Shown: positions 21,205 through 63,820 of the stretch, piece by piece
How positions within the stretch are numbered: the stretch's first letter is position 1
How the letters are laid out: the number at the start of each line of letters is the position of its first letter
Source: Clavelina lepadiformis
Lineage: Eukaryota > Chordata > Ascidiacea > Aplousobranchia > Clavelinidae
Direction of reading: 5' to 3'
Assembly: GCF_947623445.1 (NCBI RefSeq)
Contig: NC_135247.1
Span: 17,796,501-17,860,500 of the forward strand
Length of the DNA stretch: 64,000 nt
The notes under the pieces: model-generated
The model's database searches: none
Seen by the model: the letters and a program-made list of their open reading frames with translations, nothing else
What the model was told of the DNA's origin: nothing
Program-made: the position numbers and the translations under genes

Positions 21205-24200
21205 ATGGGAAATGTCAACGGTACAGCAACAGTAGGCAAGATAGTGACGCTCGGTGGCAAACGGCACAGCCACAAAGAGAGCACAAAGCCGCATAAAATA
21301 AAGCCACGCCGTTCCAAATCTAAAACACTTGCAGCAAGTGAAGATACGAAGTCCGCACTACAACAGGGAGCAAATATTAACGACCGAGACGACAAATCAA
21401 GCAAACAACGTACAGAATCCAATACAGAGGACATCAAGGATATATCCAAATCTACACTTACTCCTTCACTAAATACCAACAATCAAAATGACACAAATGT
21501 AATAGCAAAACCAAACATGCAATCTCTGTACTGTGCAAACAAACCGAAACAAACTGACATGAAGACCATGGAAACAGTTGAAAAAAGAGATAAGCAGCCA
21601 TCCTTGAAGACATCGGATGAGATGAAGAAGCCAAAGATGAATAAAAAGATGCCGAGAATCCTCAATTGCCAAAGCTCCTCCACTGATTTCGCGTCCAGTT
21701 TCTCCAACTTGAGTTTGAAGAGGTTGCTCCGACCGAAACAAAAGGACCGCAAGGTGGAACGCGATTGGGAGCGAGAAGAAATGCGGTGAGAGGACAAACT
21801 GAGGGTTTTGTGATTAAAAACATCGATTATGTTTTCACATATTTACATCTTTGCTAATGATAAAAAGCTTATTTTAGGGCCGTTATAAACATTTAATATT
21901 GTCAAAAAGTCTGATTTTTAACGACTTTGCATATTAGATTCCTTGTAATTATATCTACGTTGCCGTCATATTCACCTTTGATAATCACACTCAGTATTAG
22001 GATGGAATATGAAAAAGCTGAGACTCAGATAAGAAACTCGGTAATGGACGAGCAACGAGCAAAGGCGCAGGCCCAATCCTGGAGATCTCGCCTTGAAAAG
22101 TTGACAACAGAACATCGGGACCGACTCTTTAAACAGGCCGACTCTCTGCACTCCAGACTCCGTCAGGCGGAGAAACTTCTCACGTATCACGAGGCTCGAG
22201 CAAAGCGACTTCATGACAAAAACAGTCAAATGAAAGGTTTTCAAATTTCATCATACAACGCTGTTACTGTCAGCTTTTCTACGTTAAAATATTTCTTAAA
22301 TGTTTTGCAAGATTCATGATGTAATATGTAGGCTACATGAATGGTTAACCTGTTTTCTAGATTAAAATTGCCATTGCTTTCTGATTTAGTAGTTACGTTT
22401 TATTCTATAGACTTGATCAACAGCGTGAAAGAAGAAGCCCGTTCACTTCGGGTTGAAGGTGAAAAGAAGCGTGTGGCGAGTCAGCGAAAGTTCGAAGAGA
22501 AATTCTCGGCGATGGAGCAGCAGCTGGTCAAGTTAAGAGAAAAAATAAAAGAGGCTAATTTAAAGGAATTAAGTAAAGGTTCAATGTTCTCGCATAAATC
22601 AAAGAGACAACTCCCGACTGAAAAGTCAAACCAGGTTGCATTTGTCGCCTCTCTGCGCCCCGATCATTTTCAACAAAATCAACCGGGCAGAAAAATCAAC
22701 TGTGCTACCTCCCCGCGATGTGGATCTTATTCCCGGTACTCTAACTTGCCCCCTTCAACGTATTACCCCAAGACGATTGCACCAGCTAGAAGCTTATTAC
22801 CTGCCCAAGCCTATACCCCTAGCTTCTATCCTCCACACCATGAAACAACTAGGACCATAAACCGGTATACTGCCTATTCGGACAAGAACTGTCGCTCATT
22901 TGAAACAGACTGTTTTCCCGCTGCGGTACCTGCCGTACGGCAACCGGTACAAGTAGCAGAACACGTCACGTCGACTTCGCCACAGCGTTCAAGTTATCTG
23001 CCGACTTACACTTCACAAGAATATGTCGTCTTGTCGAATCCGAGAAAGCGGTTTACGCCAGTGGTGGTGAAGTCTCCTGTACCGGTAAAACCGGTACAGA
23101 TTCACGAAAGTGTGCCGGTGCTGGAAGACGAATTTATAAAGACATCACTTCCCCTACCATCCACCGGTGTACCTTTGAAACGGTTCGCTCATCATTCCTC
23201 CAGTACCGGCTCAAAAAGATGTGATTTTTCTCCGCCTTCCAGATACACCAACTTTTCAAATACCTCGAGAAGAAGTCACGCTCACGCCGAATTATTTAAC
23301 AGAAATTCTGGCTGCTTTCATTGTAGTTGTTCCGGCCACGAATCTGCGGCAAGCGAACCGCTCCGACCGGTCACAATGGTTTTTCACAACCAAGCTTACA
23401 GTAAGCAGAGGAAATGTAACTCTAGCTCAATACCTAATTGCAAAACAAGTACACGACAAAGCCGCCCAACTTCAATTCTAAAACCAAGTGCTCCCATATA
23501 TGAAGCTGACCATGGGATTCCCACCGACTGTGCCAAGCGGTTAAAAACCCGAACCACGAGACGGCGCCCTGGGTGCACACAATCAACTCTGCTTTCGTCG
23601 CCAGGTGACGCAAACACGTTAACATCTGACGACGATCTCCTGAAAGACGTCGGGAGCTCTTACAGCGCTCTTACCAGTTCCGTCGGTTCAGGAACGACGC
23701 GACAGAGCACCCGCGGGATCGAGAGCTCTCTTGTTTCGCCCAACTCCGTGAAGTTAGTCAACGATTGCGAAGACGTGACGTCATTGTATAATGACGTCAT
23801 AAAAAGAGATCTCGAGACGCTTTCTTCAAACGAATCAAAGAAAAAGATGGTGAACGCAGGGGAAGGCGCTTTTGTTACACCTGGGTAAGATTAGGCTCAG
23901 GGGAATCCCGGTCCCTGAAATTATTTTTGCTCTGTGTAATTTTAGGAATAGTCTATCTTTTCAGAACAAGTGCTAATAAGTCAAAATTCAAAAGTTAAGC
24001 TTTTGTGAAAATCATTTTATTATCATTTTTTCAAATACCACTTGTGCTCAATGCCTTAATCTAATCGCGTGTTCAGTGAGGATGCTGCAAGCAACCAAGA
24101 TATACTGTCATGCACCATTGCGTCCGATATTGTAAAAACATCTTCAGAAACATAATGACGACTTCCATTAAGCCTCGTTGTCGTTGTGAATATAATGGGA

Positions 24201-40176: not shown

Positions 40177-41406
40177 TTAATTTATTGTATACTATTCTAT
40201 TAACTATTATTATTGTTATCCATCTATTAACGTATGATTTGACACAACGATAATGTAGCCGAAATTATTTAATAAATAAGAAGACAAAATCACATGCAAT
40301 AGCTTGCTAAAGTTTTTTAACTTGTGTTTGGATTTGCAAATTCCCTTTTGGTGAATTTGACAATTGAGGAGTTGAAAATTTCGCAAACGTGGCATTCTTG
40401 GTCTGAAAGTCTTACAACATCGTTAGACTAACATCGTAATCATCAACAACACTGTCGATATCATTTTATGAAAGGGAAGGAACCAATTGGCATCATTCTG
40501 GTGCAAGCTACGACAGAGACAATGGCGTTTACAGTTACCCTCGGCGCCAAGATTTCTAAAAATAAATTTTACTGTCCAGCAATTCACTGAACACGTTCTA
40601 TTCATGCGTTGTCCACGCAATGATTAACGTCATATCAGCTGATTTTCCTTCTGTCCAGTTGAATTTCGCCACGTCAACTCTACTGTACTTTGATGAAATA
40701 CACTACGTCTGTTCAATATTCCAAAGCTGGCAAAAATCTGCTCCAGTACCAAAGAAATAAAACATCGTTGAAATAATTTTTGTCTCTTGTTATGGCTGAT
40801 AAAAAAATTCCAAAATTGAAAAGATCCGATGCTTCCGTTAATTCAAAACAATAAGGTACCAAAATTGCAATTTTACGCTACTAACGTGAAATCTAGTAGC
40901 CTACTGGCTTACTAGTAGTAGGCCTGAAACAGACTATTTATCGCAAAAATTTGGCACTCATCGTCCTCTTGGACGTTTTTATTTGAACAGTAAGTTTATT
41001 AATTTGACTAAAAATGTGTAAGCTTACATCTTGTTTAAGAATTTAGCTTGCTTTCAGCCAATATATTAACGAAATGGTGTAAGTAGATATCAATGTTGAA
41101 CGATTTTTTCACCTCTAGCGCCGTTTAACGGCTTTCCTCTTCCCTATTTAAATGAAAAGATTTTTTAATCGGCGAATGGTAATTGATGCTTCTGGGCATC
41201 TGTCTTTCTTTGTGACGTTGTTTGAACATTTCTAAGTTTTGAAGTTGCAGAATACCCAACTAACAGTATAATCGAAGAAGAAATGTTATAGGAACCAATA
41301 ACCTAGCAATTATTTTATTTGCAAACGTTTCAAGAGATGCATAACTTAATTTCAATTCAATATAAGGAATCATCACCGAGTTTAAGTCGTGCAAAAAATT
41401 CCCTCC
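40177..41406. other. Intergenic, no gene seen
   Basis: AT-rich host DNA between the hAT MITE and the P-element array. No feature recognised. Confidence 0.5.
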
Positions 41407-41413
41407 GTCTGAC
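41407..41413. repeat. GTCTGAC target-site copy 1 (left host boundary)
   Basis: First of four identical 7-mers that bound and separate the three P-type elements. It resembles the known P-element target preference (GTCTGGCC / GGCCAGAC). Confidence 0.85.
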
Positions 41414-41866
41414 CAAAGAGATTTAAACACATGAGTAGAAACTTCTCTTTTGCGCATGACGTCATGTTTGTTTCTTTTATTCTCTTGGAGCATATTCTAC
41501 TTTCTCCACGGTCACGGTTCACTACATAACAATAAACATGCAGACGACGACAATGATTTTCAGATCTGTTTGCTGCTGGAACAGATTAGTCTTATTATTA
41601 CGATGCAGTTATTGGGATCCATTGGGTGTTAAATTTAATTGAAATTAATTAATGAAATCAGGTGATAGTTTTAGGTTCAGCAATTAACTTAGTTTCAGTT
41701 CCTTGAACTGATAATGCTGCTGTTTTGTATCAAGGCATGGCTTAGCCTACTTGAGTTGGGCGGGAAGATTTTTTCGTTCACCACATTTAAGGTAAAAATA
41801 AAATGAATGGATGAAAAATTTAGATAGACCGAGTCATATTGTATTGTTTCATCTGCGCATAAAATT
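41414..41866. repeat. Left terminal inverted repeat of element A
   Basis: About 453 bp, inverse of 47150-47601, nearly identical. The match stops after the shared block ending tgcgcataaaat. Confidence 0.88.
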
Positions 41867-41972
41867 ACGCTCCACGCGCAGAAAAAAAAAAACTTTACAG
41901 ATTAAGACTCAATAGTACAGGTCTTATGTTGCAGGCTTTGAGTTATTGAAATAAGCTAAATAGTCTGAAATA

Positions 41973-44900
41973 ATGGCAAACTTGTGCTGTTTACCAATGT
42001 GCAACAACAGGTCACCTGCCGTGACTCTGTTTAAGATACCTTCGAGAAAATTTGTAAAAAAGGAGAAGGAAAGCTGGGCAGAAAGGTTAGAGTGTATCGT
42101 GCTGGCTTGCAGAAGCGACGAGCACATAAAAAATCTATTTGCTCGAGATGCTGTGAAAATGTGTGAAATGCATTTTGAAAGATCTGACATTGTTTTAAGT
42201 AAAATTTGTTTTACATACACTTAAATGTAGTGTAACTAGTGTATTGAGGAAAGATATTTAATGTAATGGCATATCTAGCGTTTGATGCAGTGTTTGTTTT
42301 CCATGAGATGGTTTGATGCAGAACTTCATTAAATTTACTAGCGAGTGAGCACAGCATAACACTGCATCTGTAACAAGCTATTAGTGCAAACCTTCACTGT
42401 GGTTTCAGATTAATATATGTACCATTACAAGTATCAAAGTACTTTGGCGCAGGTACATTCAAGAAAGCCGCCGAAGAAGCGTATCTTTGAAACAAAAGTA
42501 CATTTCAAATCTGTTGCGTCCTTGAAATCTGCTCGCTTGGCGGAAGGTTGGCAGAGATCATTTGAAAACAAAAATCTTGTTTTTTCTTTTTATGATGGCT
42601 GTGATCAACCTAAATACTCGATTGGAGTATTATATGACATGTCATTAAGGATATGCTATTATGGCTGGAAAGCACCTCGCTCAAGTTGTATTTACTCCCT
42701 GGACATAACTACTCAAACACTACACGGCACCATAAAAGATATTGAATCGTTTTCAATATGTTCTGGATTGTACAATTCTGGAAGTGGCCTGCCACACATG
42801 ACCACCAAATCTATGACACCATTCAGTTCTGAAAATGCACCAACAGTTAGGAAACTTGCATACAGGTGAAACTAGTTTTTCAATTGTGCCTATTGCATTT
42901 GTTACATAAATGAAATTCATCATTATTTAACATTGAATGAATCATATAGAGTGGTGGGATTCAGCCGGTTCGTGCGAACCGGTTCTTGGAATTTTAATGA
43001 CATCTGCGAACTGGTTGTTAACAAGCATATGTATAAGCCTATGTGTATGTCGGTAACGGGTCAATATGGCATACTGCTAGTGAGAGAAGGAAATTTTAAC
43101 ATATTTCAATCCCACCGCTGACCATATACTTACTTATTTTTGGTAACACTGATAATGCATTGCACTTAAAGTGTACACCGTATCTTAGGCATATTTTGTG
43201 ACTTTTCTTGTTAAATGAACCAAATTTCTTGTTGTTAGAAATGCAAGTTGTGAACTTTTTCTCAAGGAAAGTGGTCAGTGCAGGAGTTGTTGTAATGTAA
43301 ATGAAAAGGAGGGACGGCTCAACCAGAAAAGGCTAAATTATTACCATATGGTTAAAGATCAACCTTTAAAACGATCAGCGCAGCCAACATTTAACCTACC
43401 ATCTCGAATTACCTCCACCTTTACTGCTAATGAAATTTGGTGATATTGCACTTCGTAATCCTATTAGTAATAGTCTCATTCGCAAGGTTGTCAGTGTCAG
43501 TAGCTGTGCTTTTTACACTTAACTATATGTAGGTTGAGCAATGCCAGAAGATAGAAATAAAACAGTATTATTTAAGACAGTCTTGTTGTTATGAAGTAAA
43601 TCTTTATTAGCATTAGAGAATTGGAAGCTAAGGTTTCGACTCTGTTAGCTGATGATACGGTGCAAGTGGAGGTAGATAAAATTATGTCAGATGACATGAC
43701 AGCCATTGTTAAAGCAGGTATCATACCGATTACAAAGCTGGTAATCCAGAATATGTTACTTATAACTATTCTAATGAAGCTACAAATGTAATGTGATGCA
43801 CCTACACAATGCATATAACTCAGTCTTTTTTGTGTCGTGTGTTTTTGTGAAGTTTACGTAAATATCATACATTTTATTTAGCTCAAGATGAGGATAAAAT
43901 TGATAACTTCTACTCAATCTTTTGGAAAGAGCAGCAAAAGCTAAATAGTATGAAAAGAAATGGGGAAAGATATCACCCTGAGTTAATAAAGTAGGTTTAG
44001 GTCTCCTTGAGTAATAAACTACTGAAGTAATTGGTGTAAAGATATCAACATGTTTTAAGTTCAGTTGACCTCAATTTTTTGTTTATTTCGTAAAAGCGTG
44101 CTAAAATCAACCCTTGCAATTTTCTTTATAGATTCTGTTTGAGTCTAGCTGCTAAAAGTAAAAGCGCCTATGAAGAATTACGACAAAGTGGCATTTTACG
44201 ACTACCAAGCTCACGCACCCTAAATGACTATCGGTAGCGTATGGGTTCTGTTCTCTGCAATTTGGCTACTACTAGCTACCTACGAGCAATTGTTTCACTT
44301 GCTCACTTTTGTACTGTTTTCAGAAACGTTTACTGCACTGCACCTGGCATTCAAGATAATGTTTTAGAAGAACTGAAATCCAAAAGTCTCAGTCTAGCAT
44401 CACATGAACGATTTCTCGTTATATCAATCGATGAAATGAAAGGTGAAACTTTTCTTGGTATTTTTAACACTATTAATCACACTGTGTAAGATTCTTATTC
44501 ATGCTTTATGACAAAACAATGACACAAGTTATTAACTGTATATGCACGAGATATAGCCTGTTGCTTATTTTGTTTACAGTGAAAGAAAATATTGTGTATA
44601 ATGCAGCAACAGACCGAATAATAGGATTTGTTGATCTGGGTGTCGACAGACAATACAATAATGAAGCTCCTGCCACACATGCCCTACAATTTTATGGTAG
44701 GAGTATCCTCAGCAATTTTTCCCGGCCTATTGTCTTTTATGCCACCAAGAATACAAAGGCATTTCACTTGGTTAGCATGTTCTGGGAAGTGGTTGAATCC
44801 TTGGCCGGATGTGGTTTTACAGTCTTAGCACTTGTTGCTGATGGTGCATCCTGCAATCGAAAATTGTTCCAATTGCTCAATAATTCCAATTTGACCGTCC

Positions 44901-45754
44901 CCTACAAGTGCATTAATATTTATCAGCCAGAAATGCCTATTTATTTGATTAGTGACCCTCCACACTTGCTGAAGACAGCCTGTAACTGTGTGAGATCCAG
45001 CCGTCCAGGTGGAGCTAGAATGATGAAGTACAATCAACATTTCATTTTGTGGGAGCATTTTTGCCATGTTCCTTACCTATTTGAAAGTTCAGAGTTGAGA
45101 AGTTGCAAGTTGACTGATGGCCATTTTTCCCATAAGAGTTACGCAAAAATGCGGGTTTGCTATGCCGCACAATTGCTCTCTGGAACTGTCTCCAGTTTAA
45201 TGAAGAGTCGTGGTGGAGAAGAAATGAAGATGAGTGCGTGGTTTGCTGGTTTGATGAATAAGTGGTTTGACCTCATGAACACCAGATTAAATTATTCATA
45301 CAACCCAGACTTGAAACCATATACAACGATTGATGATCCTCGTCTGAAATGGCTTAATACATTCCTTTCAGAGTTAAAACAATGGAAAAGCAGTTTAACT
45401 GGGTCCGTTTCCGAACAGTCAAAGCAGTTTCTGAGCCATCAAACCTACGACGGTTTAGTTTCCACATCCATGGCCATTGCTGAATTGGTGAAATTCTTGT
45501 TGGAGAACAGCCCAGAAGGTTCATACGTCTTAACTAAGCGCTTAAACCAAGACCCATTGGAGGCCTATTTCGGTCATATGAGACAAACTGGCCGTCGAAA
45601 TGAAGTGCCTGATATTCACCAATATGCACAATTTGAAAATGTGATAATGTGCAAAAAGAATATCAAGTCACTTAAGGGGTCAAATGTAAATCACGTTATT
45701 GACTGGAAACATGGTGATGTTTGCGATGATCCAATGCCGAAGCGAAAAAAATAA
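41973..45754 (+). CDS. THAP/P-element transposase of element A
   Basis: Exons as I read them: 41973-42198 (THAP), 42409-42865, 43239-43439, 43611-43717, 43882-43990, 44132-44233, 44324-44442, 44580-45754. The THAP domain has MANLCCLPMC, ESWAERL and KMCEMHF (the C2CH zinc site). 43611-43717 is a short coiled-coil segment. The RNase H-like core has ISIDEMK, LALVADGASCNRKLF, DPPHLLKT and DPLEAYFGHMR, the P/THAP9 signature with its acidic residues. The end PKRKK is basic. From exon 2 on all phases agree. The THAP exon joins exon 2 in the right phase but meets TAA at 42411-42413 before ATG 42417. THAP and core may therefore be made separately, or the stop is a lesion; element B shares it. Confidence 0.85.
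42949..43120. mobile_element. hAT-type MITE (172 bp) nested in element A
   Basis: Starts GAGTGGTGGGATT and ends AATCCCACCGCTG (inverted). Near-matching 8-mers ATCATATA (42941-42948) and ACCATATA (43121-43128) flank it. It sits in a transposase intron. Inner CCGGTTCGTGCGAACCGG is a short palindrome. Confidence 0.8.
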
Positions 45755-45980
45755 CTTGATTTCGAGTGTTTTGACAGTCTGCTTGTGCAATACAGTAACA
45801 CTTAATCCTTCTTGAGCTAAAACTGACAAAGTACATGTAAGAAGACAACTATGTAATGTACATTCATTTTAATGATTTTCTCAGACTTACATTTTGATCA
45901 GAGGTTACATGCAGTACTGAATTTAAATGATTGGCTTTTTGATAGCATCTAATGATTAGATTCTAATCTTCACGTAAAAT

Positions 45981-47092
45981 TTACATATTTTCATGCAATT
46001 TTTGCAAACATTCATCAAAAACAAGATTTTCAAATATATCTTTTATGTTACAAACACTCAAAGAAGACATGCAACTTTCCATGATGTGCTCCTTTATGTC
46101 TTGTTTCCTAAAGACACTTTCTGCATACATCAACAATTTCACTAGTGATTTCGCTGGAACTGTAAGATGTCCATAATTGTTATTATTTAAAGCGGAAATC
46201 AAGGAACTATTAGTGGTTTCATTACTATAATCAGTTAAACAAGACAATAGATCTATTTCTCTCGGATTTATACAACGCTTAGTGAGTTTCTGCAAAATAT
46301 AACCACCTATGTACTGAATTATGAATTCTTCGTCTCGGGTTAACTTGTGTAATGTCAAGTGTTTCCCCTTTTTGTTGTGTGCAACAGTGGTAACGTGTGA
46401 TAAAAATACATCAAACAATTTTCGTGTTAAACATAGTGACAATTTTCTTGGCAAGAAAAATAGTGATGGGATGCACGTAATTCCATCACAGGAGAATTTA
46501 TGAAACAGTTCATCCGGTGAACTGTACGAAGAAAATAGCTTCATAAAATAGTTAACCGCATCTGCAGTTAGATCTGTTTTAACGCCACCCACTGTTTCCC
46601 ACCGTTCCATCAGCTTTTCTCTTGTAACATTATTGCAAGAAGATTCTGCAAGACAAGTGTAAAATTAAGTTTGTTTGATTTTTTTAATCAGAATCTGCCA
46701 ATGATAGAGCTCCAAATGAAATAAGTTTCAAACAAAAAACAAATATACCGTGAGCAGTTTTTTGATGAGCCAGCAAAGTTTCATTACTTGTGCAATTATG
46801 CAAACATTGTCCACATCTGCAAATAAATATTTTCATTATCAGATTAAATGACATCAATATATCAGTACAGCATTTCTTCAAATATTCGTTACGACTTACA
46901 TTAATTTGTTGTTTTGCTTGGCTGTTTATTATAAATTGGCGAGAACGTACGCTCTGGGTGACCGCCATACAGGACAAGCTCAACAGCAGTTGGCTAATTG
47001 ATTAATAGGCATATCGTATCTTACATGAAGTTTGCTGCATCTTCTTCTGGGTCACAATCTATTTCAATAATTAACTTCAAATTGACATCCAT
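45981..47092 (-). CDS. Accessory C2H2 zinc-finger gene of element A (3' end damaged)
   Basis: Minus-strand exons: 47025-47092 (MDVNLKLIIEIDCDPEEDA), 46749-46816 (zinc finger CGQCLHNC then LLAHQKTAH) and 45981-46645. The last exon encodes TADAVNYFMKLF, RKLFDVFLSHV, YIGGYILQKL and DECLQKL. Phases agree. Compared with element B, two bases are missing near the end, so the frame stops at 45981 instead of running on to the conserved C-terminus LRKSLK. The protein is homologous to the intact gene at 53586-54949. Its role is unknown; a DNA-binding regulator or partner of the transposase is a guess. It converges on the transposase gene, with about 230 bases between the two stops. Confidence 0.78.
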
Positions 47093-47149
47093 TAGATCTC
47101 AACAACTGCACCACAATAACAAGATCTGAAATCAGATTTCCAGTAGCCT

Positions 47150-48060
47150 ATTTTATGCGCAGATGAAACAATACAATATGACTCGGTCTATCTAAATTTT
47201 TCATCCATTCATTTTATTTTTACCTTAAATGTGGTGAACGAAAAAATCTTCCCGCGCAACTCAAGTAGGCTAAGCCATGCCTTGATACAAAACAGCAGCA
47301 TTATCAGTTCAAGGAACTGAAACTAAGTTAATTGCTGAACCTAAAACTATCACCTGATTTCATTAATTAATTTCAATTAAATTTAACACCCAATGGATCC
47401 CAATAACTGCATCGTAATAATAAGACTAATCTGTTCCAGCAGCAAACAGATCTGAAAATCATTGTCGTCGTCTGCATGTTTATTGTTATGTAGTGAACCG
47501 TGACCGTGGAGAAAGTAGAATATGCTCCAAGAGAATAAAAGAAACAAACATGACGTCATGCGCAAAAGAGAAGTTTCTACTCATGTGTTTAAATCTCTTT
47601 GGTCTGACCAAAGAGATTTAAACACATGAGTAGAAACTTCTCTTTTGCGCATGACGTCATGTTTCTTTCTTTTATTCTCTTGGAGCATATTCTACTTTCT
47701 CCACGGTCACGGTTCACTACATAACAATAAACATGCAGACGACGACAATGATTTTCAGATCTGTTTGCTGCTGGAACAGATTAGTCTTATTATTACGATG
47801 CAGTTATTGGGATCCATTGGGTGTTAAATTTAATTGAAATTAATAAATGAAATCAGGTGATAGTTTTAGGTTCAGCAATTAACTTAGTTTCAGTTCCTTG
47901 AACTGATAATGCTGCTGTTTTGTATCAAGGCATGGCTTAGCCTACTTGAGTTGCGCGGGAAGATTTTTTTGTTCACCACATTTAAGGTAAAAATAAAATG
48001 AATGGATGAAAAATTTAGATAGACCGAGTCATATTGTATTGTTTCATCTGCGCATAAAAT
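47150..48060. repeat. 911-bp near-perfect palindrome at the A/B junction
   Basis: The right inverted repeat of element A (47150-47601), the 7-bp GTCTGAC and the left inverted repeat of element B (47609-48060) stand back to back. Each arm is about 452 bp and almost identical, so the strand can fold into a long hairpin with a 7-base spacer. Confidence 0.88.
47602..47608. repeat. GTCTGAC target-site copy 2 (A/B junction)
   Basis: A single 7-mer separates the mirror-image ends CTCTTTG and CAAAGAG of elements A and B. Confidence 0.88.
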
Positions 48061-48164
48061 TACGCTCCACGCGCAGAATAAAAACTTTACAGATTAAGAC
48101 TCAATAGTACAGGTCTTATGTTGCAGGCTTTGAGTTATTGAAATAAGCTAAATAGTCTGAAATA

Positions 48165-51100
48165 ATGGCAAACTTGTGCTGTTTACCAATGTGCAACAAC
48201 AGGTCACTTGCCGTGACTCTGTTTAAGATACCTTCGAGAAAATTTGTAAAAAAGGAGAAGGAAAGCTGGGCAGAAAGGTTAGAGTGTATCGTGCTGGCTT
48301 GCAGAAGCGACGAGCACATAAAAAATCTATTTGCTCGAGATGCTGTGAAAATGTGTGAAGTGCATTTTGAAAGATCTGACATTGTTTTAAGTAAAATTTG
48401 TTTTACATACACTTACATGTAGTGTAACTAGTGTATTGAGGAAAGATATTTAATGTAATGGCATATCTAGCGTTTGATGCAGTGTTTGTTTTCCATGAGA
48501 TGGTTTGATGCAGAACTTCATTAAATTTACTAGCGAGTGAGCACAGCATAACACTGCATCTGTAACAAGCTATTAGTGCAAACCTTCACTGTGGTTTCAG
48601 ATTAATATATGTACCATTACAAGTATCAAAGTACTTTGGCGCAGGTACATTCAAGAAAGCCGCCGAAGAAGCGTATCTTTGAAACAAAAGTACATTTCAA
48701 ATCTGTTGCGTCCTTGAAATCTGCTCGCTTGGCGGAAGGTTGGCAGAGATCATTTGAAAACAAAAATCTTGTTTTTTCTTTTTATGATGGCTGTGATCAA
48801 CCTAAATACTCGATTGGAGTATTATATGACATGTCATTAAGGATATGCTATTATGGCTGGAAAGCACCTCGCTCAAGTTGTATTTACTCCCTGGACATAA
48901 CTACTCAAACACTACACGGCACCATAAAAGATATTGAATCGTTTTCAATATGTTCTGGATTGTACAATTCTGGAAGTGGCCTGCCACACATGACCACCAA
49001 ATCTATGACACCATTCAGTTCTGAAAATGCACCAACAGTTAGGAAACTTGCATACAGGTGAAACTAGTTTTTCAATTGTGCCTATTGCATTTGTTACATA
49101 AATGAAATTCATCATTATTTAACATTGAATGAATCATATAGAGTGGTGGGATTCAGCCGGTTCGTGCGAACCGGTTCTTGGAATTTTAATGACATCTGCG
49201 AACTGGTTGTTAACAAGCATATGTATAAGCCTATGTGTATGTCGGTAACGGGTCAATATGGCATGCTGCTAGTGAGAGAAGGAAATTTTAACATATTTCA
49301 ATCCCACCGCTGACCATATACTTACTTATTTTTGGTAACACTGATAATGCATTGCACTTAAAGTGTACACCGTATCTTAGGCATATTTTGTGACTTTTCT
49401 TGTTAAATGAACCAAATTTCTTGTTGTTAGAAATGCAAGTTGTGAACTTTTTCTCAAGGAAAGTGGTCAGTGCAGGAGTTGTTGTAATATAAATGAAAAG
49501 GAGGGACGGCTCAACCAGAAAAGGCTAAATTATTACCATATGGTTAAAGATCAACCTTTAAAACGATCAGCGCAGCCAACATTTAACCTACCATCTCGAA
49601 TTACCTCCACCTTTACTGCTAATGAAATTTGGTGATATTGCACTTCGTAATCCTATTAGTAATAGTCTCATTCGCAAGGTTGTCAGTGTCAGTAGCTGTG
49701 CTTTTTACACTTAACTATATGTAGGTTGAGCAATGCCAGAAGATAGAAATAAAACAGTATTATTTAAGACAGTCTTGTTGTTATAAAGTAAATCTTTATT
49801 AGCATTAGAGAATTGGAAGCTAAGGTTTCGACTCTGTTAGCTGATGATACGGTGCAAGTGGAGGTAGATAAAATTATGTCAGATGACATGACAGCCATTG
49901 TTAAAGCAGGTATCATACCGATTACAAAGCTGGTAATCCAGAATATGTTACTTATAACTATTCTAATGAAGCTACAAATGTAATGTGATGCACCTACACA
50001 ATGCATATAACTCAGTCTTTTTTGTGTCGTGTGTTTTTGTGAAGTTTACGTAAATATCATACATTTTATTTAGCTCAAGATGAGGATAAAATTGATAACT
50101 TCTACTCAATCTTTTGGAAAGAGCAGCAAAAGCTAAATAGTATGAAAAGAAATGGGGAAAGATATCACCCTGAGTTAATAAAGTAGGTTTAGGTCTCCTT
50201 GAGTAATAAACTACTGAAGTAATTGGTGTAAAGATATCAACATGTTTTAAGTTCAGTTGACCTCAATTTTTTGTTTATTTCGTAAAAGCGTGCTAAAATC
50301 AACCCTTGCAATTTTCTTTATAGATTCTGTTTGAGTCTAGCTGCTAAAAGTAAAAGCGCCTATGAAGAATTACGACAAAGTGGCATTTTACGACTACCAA
50401 GCTCACGCACCCTAAATGACTATCGGTAGCGTATGGGTTCTGTTCTCTGCAATTTGGCTACTACTAGCTACCTACGAGCAATTGTTTCACTTGCTCACTT
50501 TTGTACTGTTTTCAGAAACGTTTACTGCACTGCACCTGGCATTCAAGATAATGTTTTAGAAGAACTGAAATCCAAAAGTCTCAGTCTAGCATCACATGAA
50601 CGATTTCTCGTTATATCAATCGATGAAATGAAAGGTGAAACTTTTCTTGATATTTTTAACACTATTAATCACACTGTGTAAGATTCTTATTCATGCTTTA
50701 TGACAAAACAATGACACAAGTTATTAACTGTATATGCACGAGATATAGCCTGTTGCTTATTTTGTTTACAGTGAAAGAAAATATTGTGTATAATGCAGCA
50801 ACAGACCGAATAATAGGATTTGTTGATCTGGGTGTCAACAGACAATACAATAATGAAGCTCCTGCCACACATGCCCTACAATTTTATGGTAGGAGTATCC
50901 TCAGCAATTTTTCCCGGCCTATTGTCTTTTATGCCACCAAGAATACAAAGGCATTTCACTTGGTTAGCATGTTCTGGGAAGTAGTTGAATCCTTGGCCGG
51001 ATGTGGTTTTACAGTCTTAGCACTTGTTGCTGATGGTGCATCCTGCAATCGAAAATTGTTCCAATTGCTCAATAATTCCAATTTGACCGTCCCCTACAAG

Positions 51101-51507
51101 TGCATTAATATTTATCAGCCAGAAATGCCTATTTATTTGATTAGTGACCCTCCACACTTGCTGAAGACAGCCTGTAACTGTGTGAGATCCAGCCGTCTAG
51201 GTGGAGCTAGAATGATGAAGTACAATCAACATTTCATTTTGTGGGAGCATTTTTGCCATGTTCCCTACCTATTTGAAAGTTCAGAGTTGAGAAGTTGCAA
51301 GTTGACTGAGACCCATTGGAGGCCTATTTCGGTCATATGAGACAAACTGGCCGTCGAAATGAAGTGCCTGATATTCACCAATATGTACAATTTGAAAATG
51401 TGATAATGTGCAAAAAGAATATCAAGTCACTTAAGGGGTCAAATGTAAATCATGTTATTGACTGGAAACATGGTGATGTTTGCGATGATCCAATGCGAAA
51501 AAAATAA
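48165..51507 (+). pseudogene. Deleted P-element transposase of element B
   Basis: Exons match element A, offset by about 6192 bases, up to SELRSCKLT. There bases corresponding to 45118-45550 of element A are missing (433 bp, not a multiple of three). The frame then goes out of register and stops at about 51340. The downstream DPLE block survives only out of frame. The loss removes the last catalytic acidic region, so no active transposase is expected. A truncated product could still bind DNA through its THAP domain. Confidence 0.9.
49141..49312. mobile_element. hAT-type MITE nested in element B
   Basis: Same insertion as 42949-43120, same flanking 8-mers (49133-49140 and 49313-49320). It therefore predates the split of elements A and B. 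Confidence 0.8.
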
Positions 51508-51616
51508 CTTGATTTCGAGTGTTTTGACAGTCTGCTTGTGCAATACAGTAGTACTTAATCCTTCTTGAGCTAAAACTGACGAAGTACATGTAAGAAGACA
51601 ACTATGTAATGTACAT

Positions 51617-52831
51617 TCATTTTAATGATTTTCTCAGACTTACATTTTGATCAGAGGTATGCAGTACTGAATTTAAATGATTGGCTTTTTGATAGCATCT
51701 AATCTTCACGTAAAATTTACATATTTTCATGCACAATTTTTGCAAACATTCATCAAAAACAAGATTTTCAAATATATCTTTTATGTTACAAACACTCAAA
51801 GAAGACATGCAACTTTCCATGATGTGCTCCTTTATGTCTTGTTTCCTAAAGACACTTTGTACATACATCAACAGTTTCACTAGTGATTTCGCTGGAACTG
51901 TAAGATGTCCATAATTGTTATTATTTAAAGTGGAAATCAAGGAACTATTAGTGGTTTCATTACTATAATCAGTTAAACAAGACAATAGATCTATTTCACT
52001 CGGATTTATACAGCGCTTAGTGAGTTTCTGCAAAATATAACCACCTATGTACTGAATTATGAATTCTTCGTCTCGGGTTAACTTGTGTAATGTCAAGTGT
52101 TTCCCCTTTTTGTTGTGTGCAACAGTGGTAACGTGTGATAAAAATACATCAAACAATTTTCGTGACATAGTGACAATTTTCTTGGCAAGAAAAATAGTGA
52201 TGGGATGCACGTAATTCCATCACAGGAGAATTTATGAAACAGTTCATCCGGTGAACTGTACGAAGAAAATAGCTTCATAAAATAGTTAACCGCATCTGCA
52301 GTTAGATCCGTTTTAACGCCACCCACTGTTTCCCACCATTCCATCAGCTTTTCTCTTGTAACATTATTGCAAGAAGATTCTGCAAGACAAGTGTAAAATT
52401 AAGTTTGTTTGATTTTTTTAATCGGAATCTGCCAATGATAGAGCTCCAAATGAAATAAGTTTCAAACAAAAAACAAATATACCGTGAGCAGTTTTTTGAT
52501 GAGCCAGCAAAGTTTCATTACTTGTGCAGTTATGCAAACATTGTCCACATCTGCAAATAAATATTTTCATTATCAGATTAAATGACATCAATATATCAGT
52601 ACTGTACAGCATTTCTTCAAATATTCGTTACGACTTACATTAATTTGTTGTTTTGCTTGGCTGTTTATTATAAATTGGCGAGAACGTACACTCTGGGTGA
52701 CCGCTATACAGGACAAGCTCAACAGCAGTTGGCTAATTGATTAATAGGCATATCGTATCTTACATGAAGTTTGCTGCATCGCCTTCTGGGTCACAATCTA
52801 TTTCAATAATTAACTTCAAATTGACATCCAT
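51617..52831 (-). pseudogene. Accessory C2H2 zinc-finger gene of element B (mid-gene frame break)
   Basis: The start is the ATG at 52829-52831. The zinc-finger exon lies at about 52490-52558 and the large last exon runs to the stop at 51617-51619. It keeps the conserved end VKIRCYQKANHL then LRKSLK that element A has lost. However, five bases present in element A (near 52165) are missing, so the first half of the last exon is out of frame with the second half. Each copy is thus broken in a different place. Confidence 0.8.
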
Positions 52832-53336
52832 TAGATCCCAACAACTGCACCACAATAACAAGATCTGAAATCAAACTTTCAGTAGCCTATTTTAATGACA
52901 CAACACCTGCAACATAAGGCCTATGCTAATGAGTTTAGTTGCTAATTGCTTGGTCGAAGAGAAATGTGGGGAACGAAAAAATCTTCGCGCGCAACTCAAG
53001 TAGGCTAAGCCATGCCTTGATACAAAACAGCAGCATTATCAGTTCAAGGAACTGAAACTAAGTTAATTGCTGAACCTAAAACTCTCACCTGATTTCATTA
53101 ATTAATTTCAATTAAATTTAACACCCAATGGATCCCAACAACTGCACCCTAATAATAAGACTAATCTGTTCCAGCAGCAAACAGATCTGAAAATCATTGT
53201 CGTCGTCTGCATGTTTATTGTTATGTAGTGAACCGTGACCGTGGAGAAAGTAGAATATGCTCCAAGAGAATAAAAGAAAGAAACATGACGTCATGCGCAA
53301 AAGAGAAGTTTCTACTCATGTGTTTAAATCTCTTTG

Positions 53337-53343
53337 GTCTGAC
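53337..53343. repeat. GTCTGAC target-site copy 3 (junction with older element)
   Basis: A single 7-mer between the right end of element B (CTCTTTG) and the left end of the older element (CAACGATATAAAG). Confidence 0.87.
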
Positions 53344-53585
53344 CAACGATATAAAGAACATGATGGGAAACTACCTCCTCCTCGTTTGTTTCTTTTTTAT
53401 GAGAAGAGAAGGTTTTGTTTCGCCCGCGTCACGCATGGTTGCGGACACTTACTCACTCACACTTCGCCAGTCGTGGCGAAAAGTTATACGCATTTGCATG
53501 GTTCGTTTATCGATTACTGAGAAGTGAGGTTGCTGTTTACGTTGTTTTTGACGATTCAAACGTGTGTAACCTATCAGTTGCCAAC

Positions 53586-54949
53586 ATGTCGTCTGCACCA
53601 GCACTTACTGCAGAATATTTAATTGAAATCGTTGTCGACGATGAAGAGTGTAGAATCAAGCCTGTATCATCTTCTGCTTTGCAAGCTAATGATCTCTTTC
53701 AGTAAGTTAAATTACGATAGGCTGAGGCTACAAGCAGAGACCTTTTAAGTATATGGTGCTTATGGCTTTATATGATTTAGAAACTCTCTCTCACACCAGG
53801 AAAATAGAAGGTTGGATGCATTTAATGAGTTTACTTTTGCATGTTACTGGTTAGGTGTAAATACTGTGATGAAAAATTTAAAAGTCAGCGAGGTTTTGAA
53901 GTTCATCAAAAGGTCAAGCATCGTGGTTATTTAGGTAAGTCCTGCTGCCTTAAGGTTTTGTATATTTCTGTAAGTTTACATGTTTAGCAGGATAAATTTG
54001 CGTGTATGCCAAATACAGGATTTTTCACAAGCTAACATTTTTTAAGGCATTTCCTCTGAGAAGTGTTCTTGCAAAGCAATTAAAAGTATGTGGGTTGAGG
54101 TATGTGAATCACCAGATGATTTGACGACAGAAGCCATTGATTACTTTATGAACATTTTCGCCACCAAACCAAATGGATCTGAGTTGTTGACAACGTTTAG
54201 TATAGATGGCATATCTAGAATTCTTCATATTTTTGGCCCGAATGCAGATCGATGCAAATCACTTGAAGCCACAAGGAAAATGTTTGATCTTTTTCTCAGG
54301 TATATATTTTTATGATTCAGCTTAACATTTAATGTGATAACTGATAAGATATCAATGTTGTATTATACTGATATTGAATGGTGTGGTAATATGTTCCAAC
54401 TTTCTGAAATCAATTGCAATAAGTTGGATTTTTTACTCTAGGAAAATACACGCAGAAAAAAAAACAGAATTGCCATCAAGTAACCTCACTCCTGATGAAA
54501 TTAGTATTCTCGAGTATGTTGGAGGATATATTCTGCGTAAACTGAAACGCAATGGAGATGAAGAGGAACTTGCCATTTTAGCACAGCTGGAAGACAGCAT
54601 AAACTGTTTTGTTCCTTCTGATAATTCATTAATTTCTATCTTACAGTGCAATGAGTATGGGACACTGCTTAAACCTAATCAAACATTGCTTGATGTACTA
54701 AAGTTTTTAGAAATTAACTTTCGAAATCACGCAACTTTAAAAGATACCATATCTAATGCAATTAGTTCTCTTGATTTGTCAGAGTTGCATGACATCACTA
54801 ATAATTATGACTTAGATGCTTATGTGTTGCAACGTGTTGGTCACCTTTTTTTCAAAATTCGATCGTTTCAAAAGGCGAAGGTACTAAAGTCAAAATTAGT
54901 TCAAAGCCGTAATTCTAAGAACATCAGTCTACGTAAATCACTGAAGTAA
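53586..54949 (+). CDS. Intact C2H2 zinc-finger protein of the P-element accessory family (318 aa)
   Basis: Four exons (53586-53701, 53855-53934, 54047-54299, 54442-54949) sum to 957 bases, all phases agree, all sites GT-AG. Residues about 39-62 are one C2H2 finger (CKYCDEKF, then HQKVKH). Then follow DDLTTEAIDYFMNIF, TRKMFDLFLR, LEYVGGYILRKLKR and a helical C-terminal part with SLISILQCNEYG, ending in LRKSLK. Matching blocks in the accessory genes of elements A and B are TADAVNYFMKLF, TRKLFDVFLSH, YIGGYILQKL and SLISALNNNNYG. The family is not one I can name; the GGYI block recalls C-terminal parts of some transposases. Being open while its element is dead makes host use possible. Confidence 0.82.
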
Positions 54950-55213
54950 TATCTGATGCGTTTACAAATAATCTATGTTCTTTATTATCGATGACTGTAG
55001 TTTGGGCAACAAATACACTACTTACTGAAAAAGTAAGCAATCAAAAAAATGTGTGTTAATCACCACAGTGAGAACATTTCAAAATGAATTAATCAACAAT
55101 TTCAACATTGCTCCCCTTTACTTGTTTGTATTGTTTCATGCAAGATATTATGTTTTGGTACTGCCCATATGAATTTACATCAGGAGCCTCATTGCTTCCT
55201 CTTTAATAATTCT

Positions 55214-55728
55214 TTAATAATTCTTTACTTGTTGTCTAATATCCATTAAGCCTGTGGAATAAACTTTGGAGGGCAATATTCTTTCTTTAGGTTGTCTTCT
55301 TTCTGGAATTTTTTTCACTTCCACAGATTTTTGTGGTAGCTTCAGGGTTGGAATGGCCCCTATGCGTAGCTCCTTGCGAGTTCCTTCTAAAATTTAAACA
55401 CATCTGATACTGTAGTACCAATATGGTAGCCTAAGCTACAAATTTCATTTTTAGAAGCATGGATTAGATACTCAAAAGTAATTTAAAAAAAACTGCTTAC
55501 TCATGATAATATCTTCTTCAATAAAATGCTCCTCACAGATTTTCACTTGATCTTTGCTGTACAACTCTTGTATAAACTTGTCCTCTCGGTACGACAAAAT
55601 TTTTCTTTCTAATACTTCTGCCCATGCTTCTTTTTTTTTGATACAAAATTTTTTGTTTGGTGCACGAAATAAATTGTGCTGAGGTTGACAGTTGTTGACA
55701 GTTCAGGCATGCAACATATACGTGGCAT
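55214..55728 (-). pseudogene. THAP-domain stub of the older P-type element
   Basis: Minus strand. A start reading MPRICCMP (ATG at 55726-55728) fits the THAP N-terminus. It is followed by an approximately 10-base tandem duplication (tgtcaacaac type, 55684-55704) that throws the frame. The main THAP body then reads HNLFRAPNKKF, KKEAWAEVL and KICEEHFIEEDI (55501-55678), spliced in phase to KELRIGAIPTLKLP (55214-55386), the usual THAP end. A basic tail and stop follow, with no transposase core. It is homologous to the THAP exon of elements A and B. It could be a decayed THAP-only gene, or the frame break may be avoided by an intron I cannot see. Confidence 0.7.
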
Positions 55729-56052
55729 TTTTATATTGCAGTCTCAATCTGCAAGCATACCTGTAGATATTTAGGCCTAGTTTCACCGAGTTTTATAAAT
55801 TTCGCACCATAGTAAACTTCAAAGTTAACCAAATTCAGCTAGGCTTATAGGCTATACTGATATATACGCTTACAAACGTCACCTTCCCCTAATCATAGTT
55901 ATTTCTTCGTGAGGCCAGTTAGGCTACACTAAGTCCAAGGTTCAACCAAAGTCAAACGTGACAAACGGATGTGACCGCACTGAAGCGTAACGAGGGCGAA
56001 ATAAAAACGGTACTTCCCCTAGCAGTTTCCTATCATGTTCTTTATATCGTTG

Positions 56053-56059
56053 GTCTGAC
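56053..56059. repeat. GTCTGAC target-site copy 4 (right host boundary)
   Basis: Last 7-mer of the series. The inferred empty host site would be ccctcc-GTCTGAC-gattatcac. Confidence 0.85.
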
Positions 56060-56585
56060 GATTATCACAGCAAAACATAACGCAAGACACAACGTCAAAT
56101 TAGGCCTAACATATGGGGATAGTTTGATATATTATACTTGGCTCTATGCGTTTTAAAATTAAAAAACCATTTAGTATTTTTCCTTACACCTAAACACTGA
56201 TGACAGTTTCCTGTAACTTTTTTTAATGAAAGTTGAGTGTACTGGTGCTTGTAAACACTAAATTTTTTGCACAAAATCACTTCTATGATTTCGATGTCTT
56301 TCCAATCACTTGGTTGGTAATCATGGCGGCGAATACAAATTTATTTTGATTAATCATCATTTGTGGAGAAATTGTGTTTTGGCGTATCTTTGAATCTTCG
56401 GTTTGTGCGAAAAGTGTTCCAAATTTGAAGATTGGTGCAAAAAAATTTAGGCTATAATTTACCAACTTGTAGCTTAACTCATCACGCAGCTGCCAGTAGT
56501 TTACTATAAAACAATGAAACTGGGTGGATGACAAATTTTATTTTATCAGAACTCGAGTATAAATAAAGTAGGTCTAGGCTAAAAT
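56060..56585. other. 5' flank of the next gene
   Basis: Host DNA between the transposon array and the ATG at 56586. No feature recognised. Confidence 0.5.
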
Positions 56586-61123: not shown

Positions 61124-63820
61124 TTACAGTACATAATCATTATATCTTACTGGCATTCTATGTGTACGATTAGGTCGTGTGTTAGCAACAGTGTAGTTGT
61201 TAGCTGTGGGTTGACTGTTTTGGTTTGGTGTCGAAAATGTAAAGTTAAAATCAGTATCTTCATACACATTGTTAGACTTGCTATGGTCAATACGAATATG
61301 TACTCGATTACGACAATAACGAAAACCATCCAATGATTCTACCAAATATGAACGAGGCCCAAGTATGCGTACAATTTTACCCTTTTGCCATCCCTTCTTT
61401 TCCGCACTTTGGAAATAAACTCGTTGGTTGATATACAATTTTGACATTGGTTGACTTTTGCTATCGTAGGTTTGTTTGACTGAGGTGCGGCGTTGATGAC
61501 GACGATCGATGTCAAGATGTTTGCTTTTTGGAATGTGAATCGGTATCACTGATCGAGTTGGTCTACCAAACAATATCTTTGTAGGACTGCAGTTGACGTC
61601 TTGTCGTGGCGTATTGCGCAATTCCAGAAGTGCCAGCCACTGATCTTTCCCATCTTGTGCAGTACGTCTCAGCATGTTCTTTAGTGTTTTCACAGCAGCT
61701 TCCGCTTTTCCATTGCATTGTTGGTGTCCTGGTGATGATTTGTAGTGTTGTATCGCCCATTTTTGACAGAATCTTTGAAATTCTGTAGAGATGAACTGGG
61801 GTCCAGAGTCAGATACAATGCATTTAGGAATTCCATATCGGGCAAAATGACGCTTCAACGAAATGATTACGTGCTTTGCAGTTGTTGAGGTCATGACATC
61901 AATTTCAGCAAAATTTGAAAAATAGTCAACCGTGACTAAATAAGACTTTTGGTTCAACTCAAATAAATCAACACCAACTTTTTCAAATGGTGATAAACCT
62001 TCGGGATGTAGCAGTAATGGTTCTCGTTGGTTGTTTGGCTTTGCTTGTTGGCATATTGTGCAATCATGAGCCAGTTGTTTTAATTCGTTTGGCATTCCTA
62101 GCCAGAAAACGGTTTCGCGAGCTCTTCGTAACATGCTATCAGCACCAAGGTGAGCTGAATGGAGTTGAGATTTGATTTCTGATCGAAGAGGTTGAGGGAT
62201 GAAGGTTCTCTCGCCTTTTAGAATGATGCCATTTTCTTGACTCAGTGTGTCACGAATGGAGAAGTAAGGTTTGATGATGGGAGGCAAATGTTCTTTGTTG
62301 TCTGGCCACCCATTCTTGATGACTTCGAGCAGGAGTTGAGATTCCTCATTCGTCTGTATTGCATTCTTTATTTCTTTTAATCGTTCATCAGGAATTTCAT
62401 CTAGAATTGGTTCTGTAACCACTTGCGCGATTCGGTTTGGTTGATCGAGAAGTTCCGGGTAGGCACGACTTAATGTGTCAGCAATTACTAATGCAGTGCC
62501 TGGGACATATTCAAAAACAATATCGTAACGATTCAGGCGCATAATGAGAGCTTGGAGACGCTTTGGCGCTTGACTCAGAGGTTTTTTTAAAATAGACTGT
62601 AAGGGTCGATGATCATTGTCTTGACTCAGAGGTTTTTTTAAAATAGACTGTAAGGGTCGATGATCATTGTGAACTATTATCTTTCGTCCATACGTATACT
62701 GATCAAAACGTTCCAGACCAAACACAACAGAAAGAAGCTCTTTTTCAATCTGAGCCCAATTTTGCTCTGTCTTTGTCAGGGCTCTAGAAGCATATTCAAT
62801 GGGTTGATCATTCTGAAGCAACACTGCTCCCAAACCACTTTTGCTACTGTCTACTTGAAGAATTAGATCTTTTCTTTGATCAAAAAATGTCAGAATAGGA
62901 GTTTCGCAGAGCTTTTCTTTAACTTTATTCATTGCTTTCTCGCACTCTTCGCTCCACTTCCATTTCTCATTCTTCCTCGTCAGTTTCCGTAAGGGTTCCA
63001 GGTCATTGGCTAGGTTTGGCAGGAAACGAGCCAAATATTGTACCATGCCACAAAATCGTTTCACACCGGAAACATCTTCAGGAGAAGGCATACGTTGAAT
63101 TGCTTCGATTTTCGCAGGATCAGGTGCTATTCCGTTGTTGGACATCAAGTGACCCATAAATGTGATCTGCGAAGCTTTGGTTACAGTTTTTTCTTCATTT
63201 AGTAAAATGTTACATTCATGACATCTCTCACGTAGTTTTGTTAGATTTTGGTCATGGTGTGTTTCAGCCTCGATTGTGGTCTTTCCACAACCAATAACAA
63301 TTACATCATCTGCCACTGCAAATACACCTTGCAGTCCAGACAGGGCTGAGTGTAGTCTTTTTTGGAAGATCTCACTGCTCACTTTCAGACCAAACGGAAG
63401 TCTGTTCCATCGGAATCGACCGTGAGGGGTAATCATAGTAGTCAGTCGGCTGGAGTCATCATCCAACTTAACGTGCCAGAAGGCATGCTTAACATCAAGT
63501 TTGCTGAACACTTTTGCACCCTTCAGAGCAGGCAATATATCATCCAAGGTAGGCAGTTTGTAATGTTCACGCTGTAAGGCGACATTGAGAGGCTGTGGAT
63601 CAATGCAGATTCTTATCTTTCCATTAGGCTTGGATACAATAGCCATTTGGCTGACCCATTCAGTCGGTTCATCGATGACTGAAATGACATTACTAGCAAC
63701 CAATTTGTCAAGCTCTTGCTTAACTTTTTCTTGCAAGGCTACAGGTATGCGGCGACAAGGTAAAATTCTCGGTTTGACACTACTATCAACAGTTAAAGAT
63801 ACAGTACCTAAATCACCCAA
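61124..63820 (-). CDS. Gypsy-type pol (reverse transcriptase, RNase H, integrase)
   Basis: Long open region of about 900 codons. Reverse-transcriptase blocks such as KVFSKLDVKHAFWHV and FRWNRLPFGL come first, then the RNase H segment, then the integrase zinc-binding region and core (VTVDYFSNFAEI, then GPQFIS). It belongs to the element at 60550-64000 and is treated as a transposon fossil, not a host gene. Confidence 0.93.
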   Translation of the reverse strand: MGDLGTVSLTVDSSVKPRILPCRRIPVALQEKVKQELDKLVASNVISVIDEPTEWVSQMAIVSKPNGKIRICIDPQPLNVALQREHYKLPTLDDILPALKGAKVFSKLDVKHAFWHVKLDDDSSRLTTMITPHGRFRWNRLPFGLKVSSEIFQKRLHSALSGLQGVFAVADDVIVIGCGKTTIEAETHHDQNLTKLRERCHECNILLNEEKTVTKASQITFMGHLMSNNGIAPDPAKIEAIQRMPSPEDVSGVKRFCGMVQYLARFLPNLANDLEPLRKLTRKNEKWKWSEECEKAMNKVKEKLCETPILTFFDQRKDLILQVDSSKSGLGAVLLQNDQPIEYASRALTKTEQNWAQIEKELLSVVFGLERFDQYTYGRKIIVHNDHRPLQSILKKPLSQDNDHRPLQSILKKPLSQAPKRLQALIMRLNRYDIVFEYVPGTALVIADTLSRAYPELLDQPNRIAQVVTEPILDEIPDERLKEIKNAIQTNEESQLLLEVIKNGWPDNKEHLPPIIKPYFSIRDTLSQENGIILKGERTFIPQPLRSEIKSQLHSAHLGADSMLRRARETVFWLGMPNELKQLAHDCTICQQAKPNNQREPLLLHPEGLSPFEKVGVDLFELNQKSYLVTVDYFSNFAEIDVMTSTTAKHVIISLKRHFARYGIPKCIVSDSGPQFISTEFQRFCQKWAIQHYKSSPGHQQCNGKAEAAVKTLKNMLRRTAQDGKDQWLALLELRNTPRQDVNCSPTKILFGRPTRSVIPIHIPKSKHLDIDRRHQRRTSVKQTYDSKSQPMSKLYINQRVYFQSAEKKGWQKGKIVRILGPRSYLVESLDGFRYCRNRVHIRIDHSKSNNVYEDTDFNFTFSTPNQNSQPTANNYTVANTRPNRTHRMPVRYNDYVL

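Follow-up and report, generated by a model that had tools for sequence, protein, structure and literature searches.

A tandem array of three P-superfamily transposons around one 7-bp target in the ascidian Clavelina lepadiformis

The stretch of the Clavelina lepadiformis genome analyzed here (64,000 nucleotides, the window) contains three transposons, A, B and C, that adjoin end to end with a single GTCTGAC between neighbours. The locus raises the question of how three elements, belonging to two families, came to share one 7-bp target.

Layout and identity of the elements

The array comprises the following features, in window positions:

41407 to 41413, unstranded: GTCTGAC, left host border, exact 7-mer
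41414 to 47601, plus strand: element A, A-type, P superfamily, 6188 bp, inverted repeats of 452 bp with 1 mismatch
47602 to 47608, unstranded: GTCTGAC, A/B junction, exact 7-mer
47609 to 53336, plus strand: element B, A-type, 5728 bp, inverted repeats of 375 bp with 8 mismatches
53337 to 53343, unstranded: GTCTGAC, B/C junction, exact 7-mer
53344 to 56052, minus strand: element C, C-type, P superfamily, 2709 bp, inverted repeats of 29 bp with 1 mismatch
56053 to 56059, unstranded: GTCTGAC, right host border, exact 7-mer

The sequence-only reading of this locus had placed GTCTGAC at both host borders and both junctions and had described every element as starting with CAA and ending with TTG; both descriptions are exact for A, B and C. 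The 7-mer itself is not rare in the window (8 copies, 5.0 expected, 4 of them away from the array borders); its presence at all four borders is not due to chance. For random 7-mers, the probability that two more elements match the 7-mer of the first is approximately (1/4^7)^2 = 4e-9. Element ends were confirmed by genome copies (57 + 52 A-type and 28 + 28 C-type ends with at most 1 mismatch, those of the window included) in a search of 209,060,895 bases in 95 contigs, cited below by contig labels such as C1 to C9.

Long, near-identical inverted repeats are difficult to assemble, and a collapse or a false join at such repeats could give an array of this kind as an artefact. Such an origin is highly improbable: all four 7-mers are exact, A and B are not identical, each carrying private changes, and the published assembly (210.1 Mb, 102 scaffolds, nine chromosomes) is described in the accessible part of its report as 117-fold HiFi, sheared to 12-20 kb, with a QV of 67.4 (PMC10884593).

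Coding features were located in the elements as follows:

41964 to 42224, plus strand: A, open frame, THAP domain exon of the transposase (PF05485, 24.2 bits, cut-off 23.9)
44477 to 45754, plus strand: A, transposase frame with RNase H and GTP-binding insertion domains (PF21787, 67.9 bits; PF21788, 34.1 bits)
45981 to 46664, minus strand: A, last exon of a second gene, with a broken frame and, close by, indels of 14 bp and 2 bp against B
46684 to 47001, minus strand: A, frame with a C2H2-like finger (sub-threshold Pfam matches of C2H2 type only), probable upstream exon of the second gene
51617 to 52219, minus strand: B, last exon of the second gene, open frame
54046 to 54315 and 54341 to 54949, plus strand: C, two exon frames of the second gene, the last exon 38% identical to that of B
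55472 to 55702, minus strand: C, relic of the transposase THAP exon (PF05485, 19.7 bits against a cut-off of 23.9)

The elements had been read as P-type transposons, and the THAP, RNase H and GTP-binding insertion domains found in A bear this out. The A transposase matched the solved P transposase 6p5a with an E value of 1.3e-17, aligning two acidic residues that we take to be catalytic; the RNase H C-terminal model PF21789 gave 15.7 bits only (cut-off 24). Three defining features of the P superfamily are present: an N-terminal THAP domain in A (sub-threshold in the relic of C), an RNase H domain with a GTP-binding insertion related to P transposase in A, and, in the copies surveyed below, target duplications of 7 or 8 bp. 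Element B lacks 433 bp inside the transposase gene relative to A, and C is without RNase H and GTP-binding insertion domains. A and B are copies of one P-superfamily family and C is a member of a second. The orientation of C, judged from its THAP relic, is opposite to that of A and B. Element C is internally deleted: a 5065-bp relative (L069) matches C positions 1-1858 and 1867-2709, and a longer relative of 5238 bp (L077) matches positions 1-1373 and 1867-2709.

The second gene is convergent to the transposase in both families. Between the last exons of B and C, codon positions 1, 2 and 3 differ at 84, 56 and 106 of 162 codons, respectively, a pattern that looks like protein constraint. Among second-gene matches, 19 of 72 lie in a stop-free open frame of 262 aa, in A-type copies. 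The gene contains a C2H2-like finger, and a YIGGYILQKL-like stretch in it is conserved. A Pfam search of it returned no family above cut-off, and a search for solved relatives gave no convincing match (best E 0.17, an ion channel). As a guess, its product could be accessory or could supply what the short transposase C-terminus lacks. No convergent second gene of P elements is named in the titles and abstract openings of the nearest literature.

Outside the array, the window contains an 840-aa retrotransposon polyprotein frame with reverse transcriptase, RNase H and integrase core (61124-63646, minus strand), and two plus-strand frames of 194 and 515 aa (21205-21789 and 22341-23888) with no Pfam match at E 0.01.

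Target duplications and the origin of the array

The length of the target duplication was surveyed in 57 paired copies of both families, which exclude one-ended copies; beside A and B, 38 further paired A-type copies were included. Three of 43 A-type rows were left out, two as alternative pairings in nested copies and one (C6:4972935) with a right end that is not an element end. The duplication was exactly 7 bp in 50/57 copies (A-type 35/40, C-type 15/17) and 8 bp in 3/57, with no exact match in 4/57. A length of 7 bp is thus the rule for both families, and the difference from the 8 bp of Drosophila P, pointed out in the sequence-only reading, does not set this locus apart. Nor is this length new for the superfamily: 7-bp, occasionally 8-bp, duplications are published for Galileo, a P-superfamily element of Drosophila, in the accessible text of PMC4168063.

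A and B share their orientation and differ at only 16 positions in 3700 bp of the left part, as would be expected had one element been duplicated in tandem, through unequal exchange or template switching at the 7-bp repeats, with later divergence or gene conversion. Comparison with the copy L004 argues against this origin, which is unlikely. Pairwise differences in the left part of A, B and L004 are about equal (10/1957, 9/1952 and 9/1952), and over 1952 bp A and B have no derived state in common to the exclusion of L004: in each column where L004 is the odd one out, A and B have the state seen in other copies. The stop pattern and frame length of the second gene are common to A and L004 (1 TAG, 1 TAA, length 266); the pattern is missing from B, which has no stop there. 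With a 94-bp tract set aside, the right parts of A and B differ at 29/1931 positions, approximately three times the left rate, and C, as another family, requires an insertion in any case. By these comparisons B is probably not an in-place tandem copy of A. The absence of derived columns shared by A and B, together with the broken second gene that L004 shares with A, argues that the array grew by successive insertions, so that serial insertion into the duplicated site, as proposed in the sequence-only reading, is upheld against tandem duplication of A and B.

The 94-bp tract (window 47150-47243) is an exact copy of A's left repeat that extends its right repeat; it is not in B, and it may have arisen by repeat extension or conversion. 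The 95% identity of the right halves of A and B was dropped as a lone proof of separate origin, the gap being largely this one tract.

The outer ends of the array are CAA and TTG with the same 7-mer, so that the array, or part of it, could have formed elsewhere and moved in as a composite with an A end on one side and a C end on the other. Neither array junction was found elsewhere in the assembly, however. Genome-wide, the zero-mismatch element-element junctions are the two in the array and one at C3:1105586, which has another 7-mer; a composite from another site would also not explain inner 7-mers identical to the outer ones. This origin is very unlikely. Each element has ends typical of its family and a 7-bp duplication. 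The array was with good confidence produced by three separate cut-and-paste insertions of P-superfamily elements at one 7-bp target.

Traces of the empty site were sought with the joined host flanks (607 nt), which matched 38 further genome places, all parts of a short repeat (40 of 61 candidates scored). The host target lies within this short dispersed repeat, of which the window holds the pieces 41362-41413 and 56060-56062. The match crosses the whole 7-mer into the right flank in 20/38 places and stops earlier in the other 18; of the 20, 17 continue for 2-3 bases into the right flank, two for 5-6 and a single one for 22. These through-reading matches hint weakly at an empty site, of which a full copy was not found among the extracted genome loci.

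Site preference and order of insertion

Target preference was derived from 46 of the 57 copies (33 A-type and 13 C-type sites), after removal of one duplicated C-type site, the three sites in the window and all copies lacking an exact 7-bp match; the weight model additionally omits C3:1103805. A-type sites follow TWR-N7-YWA, with T at -3 in 29/33 and A at +3 in 32/33, and both in 27/32 against a background of 9.3%. At 7/32 A-type sites the right side already read CAA or the left side TTG (background 5.1%). C-type sites are GTNNNAC-like (of 13, G1 in 10, T2 in 13, A6 in 12 and C7 in 10), and the full GTNNNAC was found in 7/13 C-type sites against a background of 0.3% and in only 1/32 A-type sites. 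The GTCTGGCC-like target that had been suggested from P elements was not recovered in either family. An 8-bp or GTCTGGCC-like target was rejected by this motif survey of genome copies.

The earlier proposal of an older element joined by relatives holds as to serial growth; a simple order of A, B, C is less probable, as the site weights favour C first. The relative weight of the host site is 17 in the A model and 198 in the C model. With C resident, the A model gives 440 for its left border and 47 for its right, so that A-type copies are predicted on the left of C, as seen; for an element-element junction the A-model weight is 1215. In the opposite order, an A-type copy would have landed first, at the host weight of 17, with C arriving later. 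The C model does give a high weight (390) to the right-hand border of an element already in place, where C lies in the array, yet by these weights this order is less favoured than C first.

The sequence preferences thus make it reasonably probable that C arrived first and the A-type copies followed on its left. In the proposed course, C would have landed at TCC-GTCTGAC-GAT, which suits C-type insertion well. The CAA at its end would then have made the left border TCC-GTCTGAC-CAA, which fits TWR-N7-YWA and so supplies the half-site wanted by A-type insertions. A-type copies would have inserted there twice, each again leaving a 7-bp site beside CAA or TTG. The argument is purely statistical, with motifs from 33 + 13 sites. 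Private substitutions, obtained under slightly different counting rules (C 8/1949, A 5/1950, B 4/1947), run in the direction expected if C were oldest; the difference is too small and shows nothing.

Most likely, the three copies came to share one target because the border left by each landing resembles a good site for the next. A wider reading, that P-type ends act as self-made targets, with CAA and TTG mimicking A-type flanks and borders being better than the original site, even across families, is put forward tentatively, as somewhat doubtful.

For 166 ends and between 60 and 110 insertions, the weight model predicts that an existing duplication is hit 0.005-0.01 times in the genome, against the two junctions in the array and the one at C3:1105586; counting scars as well, which add at most 170 ends, would by estimate bring the figure to about twice this. 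Since the modelled sequence preference is too low for the observed rate, an added short-range effect would have to be assumed, such as local hopping, open chromatin or transposase pre-bound to resident ends. Local hopping is reported for Drosophila P in the accessible text of PMC7776569, and would fit the array and the close pairs of insertions. The 86 insertions considered (the C58 copy left out) include 13 pairs no more than 100 kb apart, where 3.5 were expected; three of these pairs are inside the array and two are identical-flank pairs resembling later duplications, so that 8 remain, a mild excess only. Surveyed ends adjoin another end in 5/114 cases, four of them in this array, and a tendency to insert beside ends therefore rests on few events.

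One-ended A-type copies at C1:1066296, C1:1136269 and C1:2551178 have a common 63-base flank and the 7-mer TGAAGAG, and look like later duplications of one insertion; a C-type pair at C1:10125814 and C1:10185776 is similar. The junction pattern occurred at 5 places with 1 mismatch and at more with 2; at up to 3 mismatches the reversed control exceeded the pattern (926 against 387), a level that is uninformative. Further candidate junctions picked by eye, and uncounted, are C7:13492280 (1 mismatch) and C1:21687226 and C3:14656059 (2 mismatches).

Scars, known systems and significance

The scar pattern, CAA to TTG with at most 29 bases between, gave 85 matches in the genome against 1 in the reversed control; at least one place was matched twice, and the sequence was inspected at 8 places. 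Scar-like hairpins of two joined element ends, for example at C1:6923838-6923873 and C6:1152725-1152761 (L072), are probably excision scars. The two A-type scars among those inspected retain 17 + 17 nt of the element ends, and the C-type scar at C6:1152725 has GTCAAAC on either side. From such remains both families look recently mobile. At C9:4328911-4329025 (L078), two scar-like pieces of C-type are surrounded by three copies of ATTCAAC, which may mark another array on one target, since excised, or a duplication made during repair. At C3:1105597-1105635 (L024), an A-type element adjoins a 32-bp C-type scar across a common CTCTCAC (C3:1105597-1105603). This is a second case in which an A-type element meets a C-type end over one 7-mer, though an uncertain one, as the far side of the scar is ATCAAAG, not CTCTCAC.

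Published systems are compared here from the accessible parts of their reports. Drosophila P resembles these elements in a transposase of THAP, RNase H and GTP-binding domains, and its transposase cuts 17 nt inside the ends, with staggered excision (PMC7776569), a length also kept from each end in the two probable A-type scars. It differs in its 8-bp duplications and 31-bp inverted repeats (PMC7776569); here 7-bp duplications are the rule and three elements of two families stand together. Galileo shares long inverted repeats, 7-bp (sometimes 8-bp) duplications, a palindromic target motif and a THAP-type transposase (PMC4168063, PMC3688188, PMC2775673). It differs in its consensus GTANTAC (PMC4168063), from which both families depart by the GTNNNAC counts above, and in its repeats of 0.5-1.2 kb (452 bp in A, 29 bp in C), and it is unlike both families here in the second convergent gene. 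Zebrafish Pdre2 is likewise a P-like element, with a THAP9 transposase of a chordate, but has 8-bp duplications and 13-bp repeats (PMC10983969).

In flies, stacking of P elements is a known phenomenon, but a triple stack that mixes families and has a reason in the sequence is unusual. The two P elements of singed-weak share one target duplication. They are placed at the singed promoter in PMC7176646, and P element clusters are said in PMC10299278 to have been reported earlier. No description of a triple P-element array was found in the accessible literature on stacked P elements, which includes few subscription papers.

The array brings two P-type families together on one common target, and both carry a second, convergent gene that is conserved between them. 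From the old observation that P elements insert within or next to others of their kind, it derives a sequence rule open to testing, in a chordate genome. If P-type ends are indeed self-made targets, resident elements, and even excision scars, would nucleate arrays.
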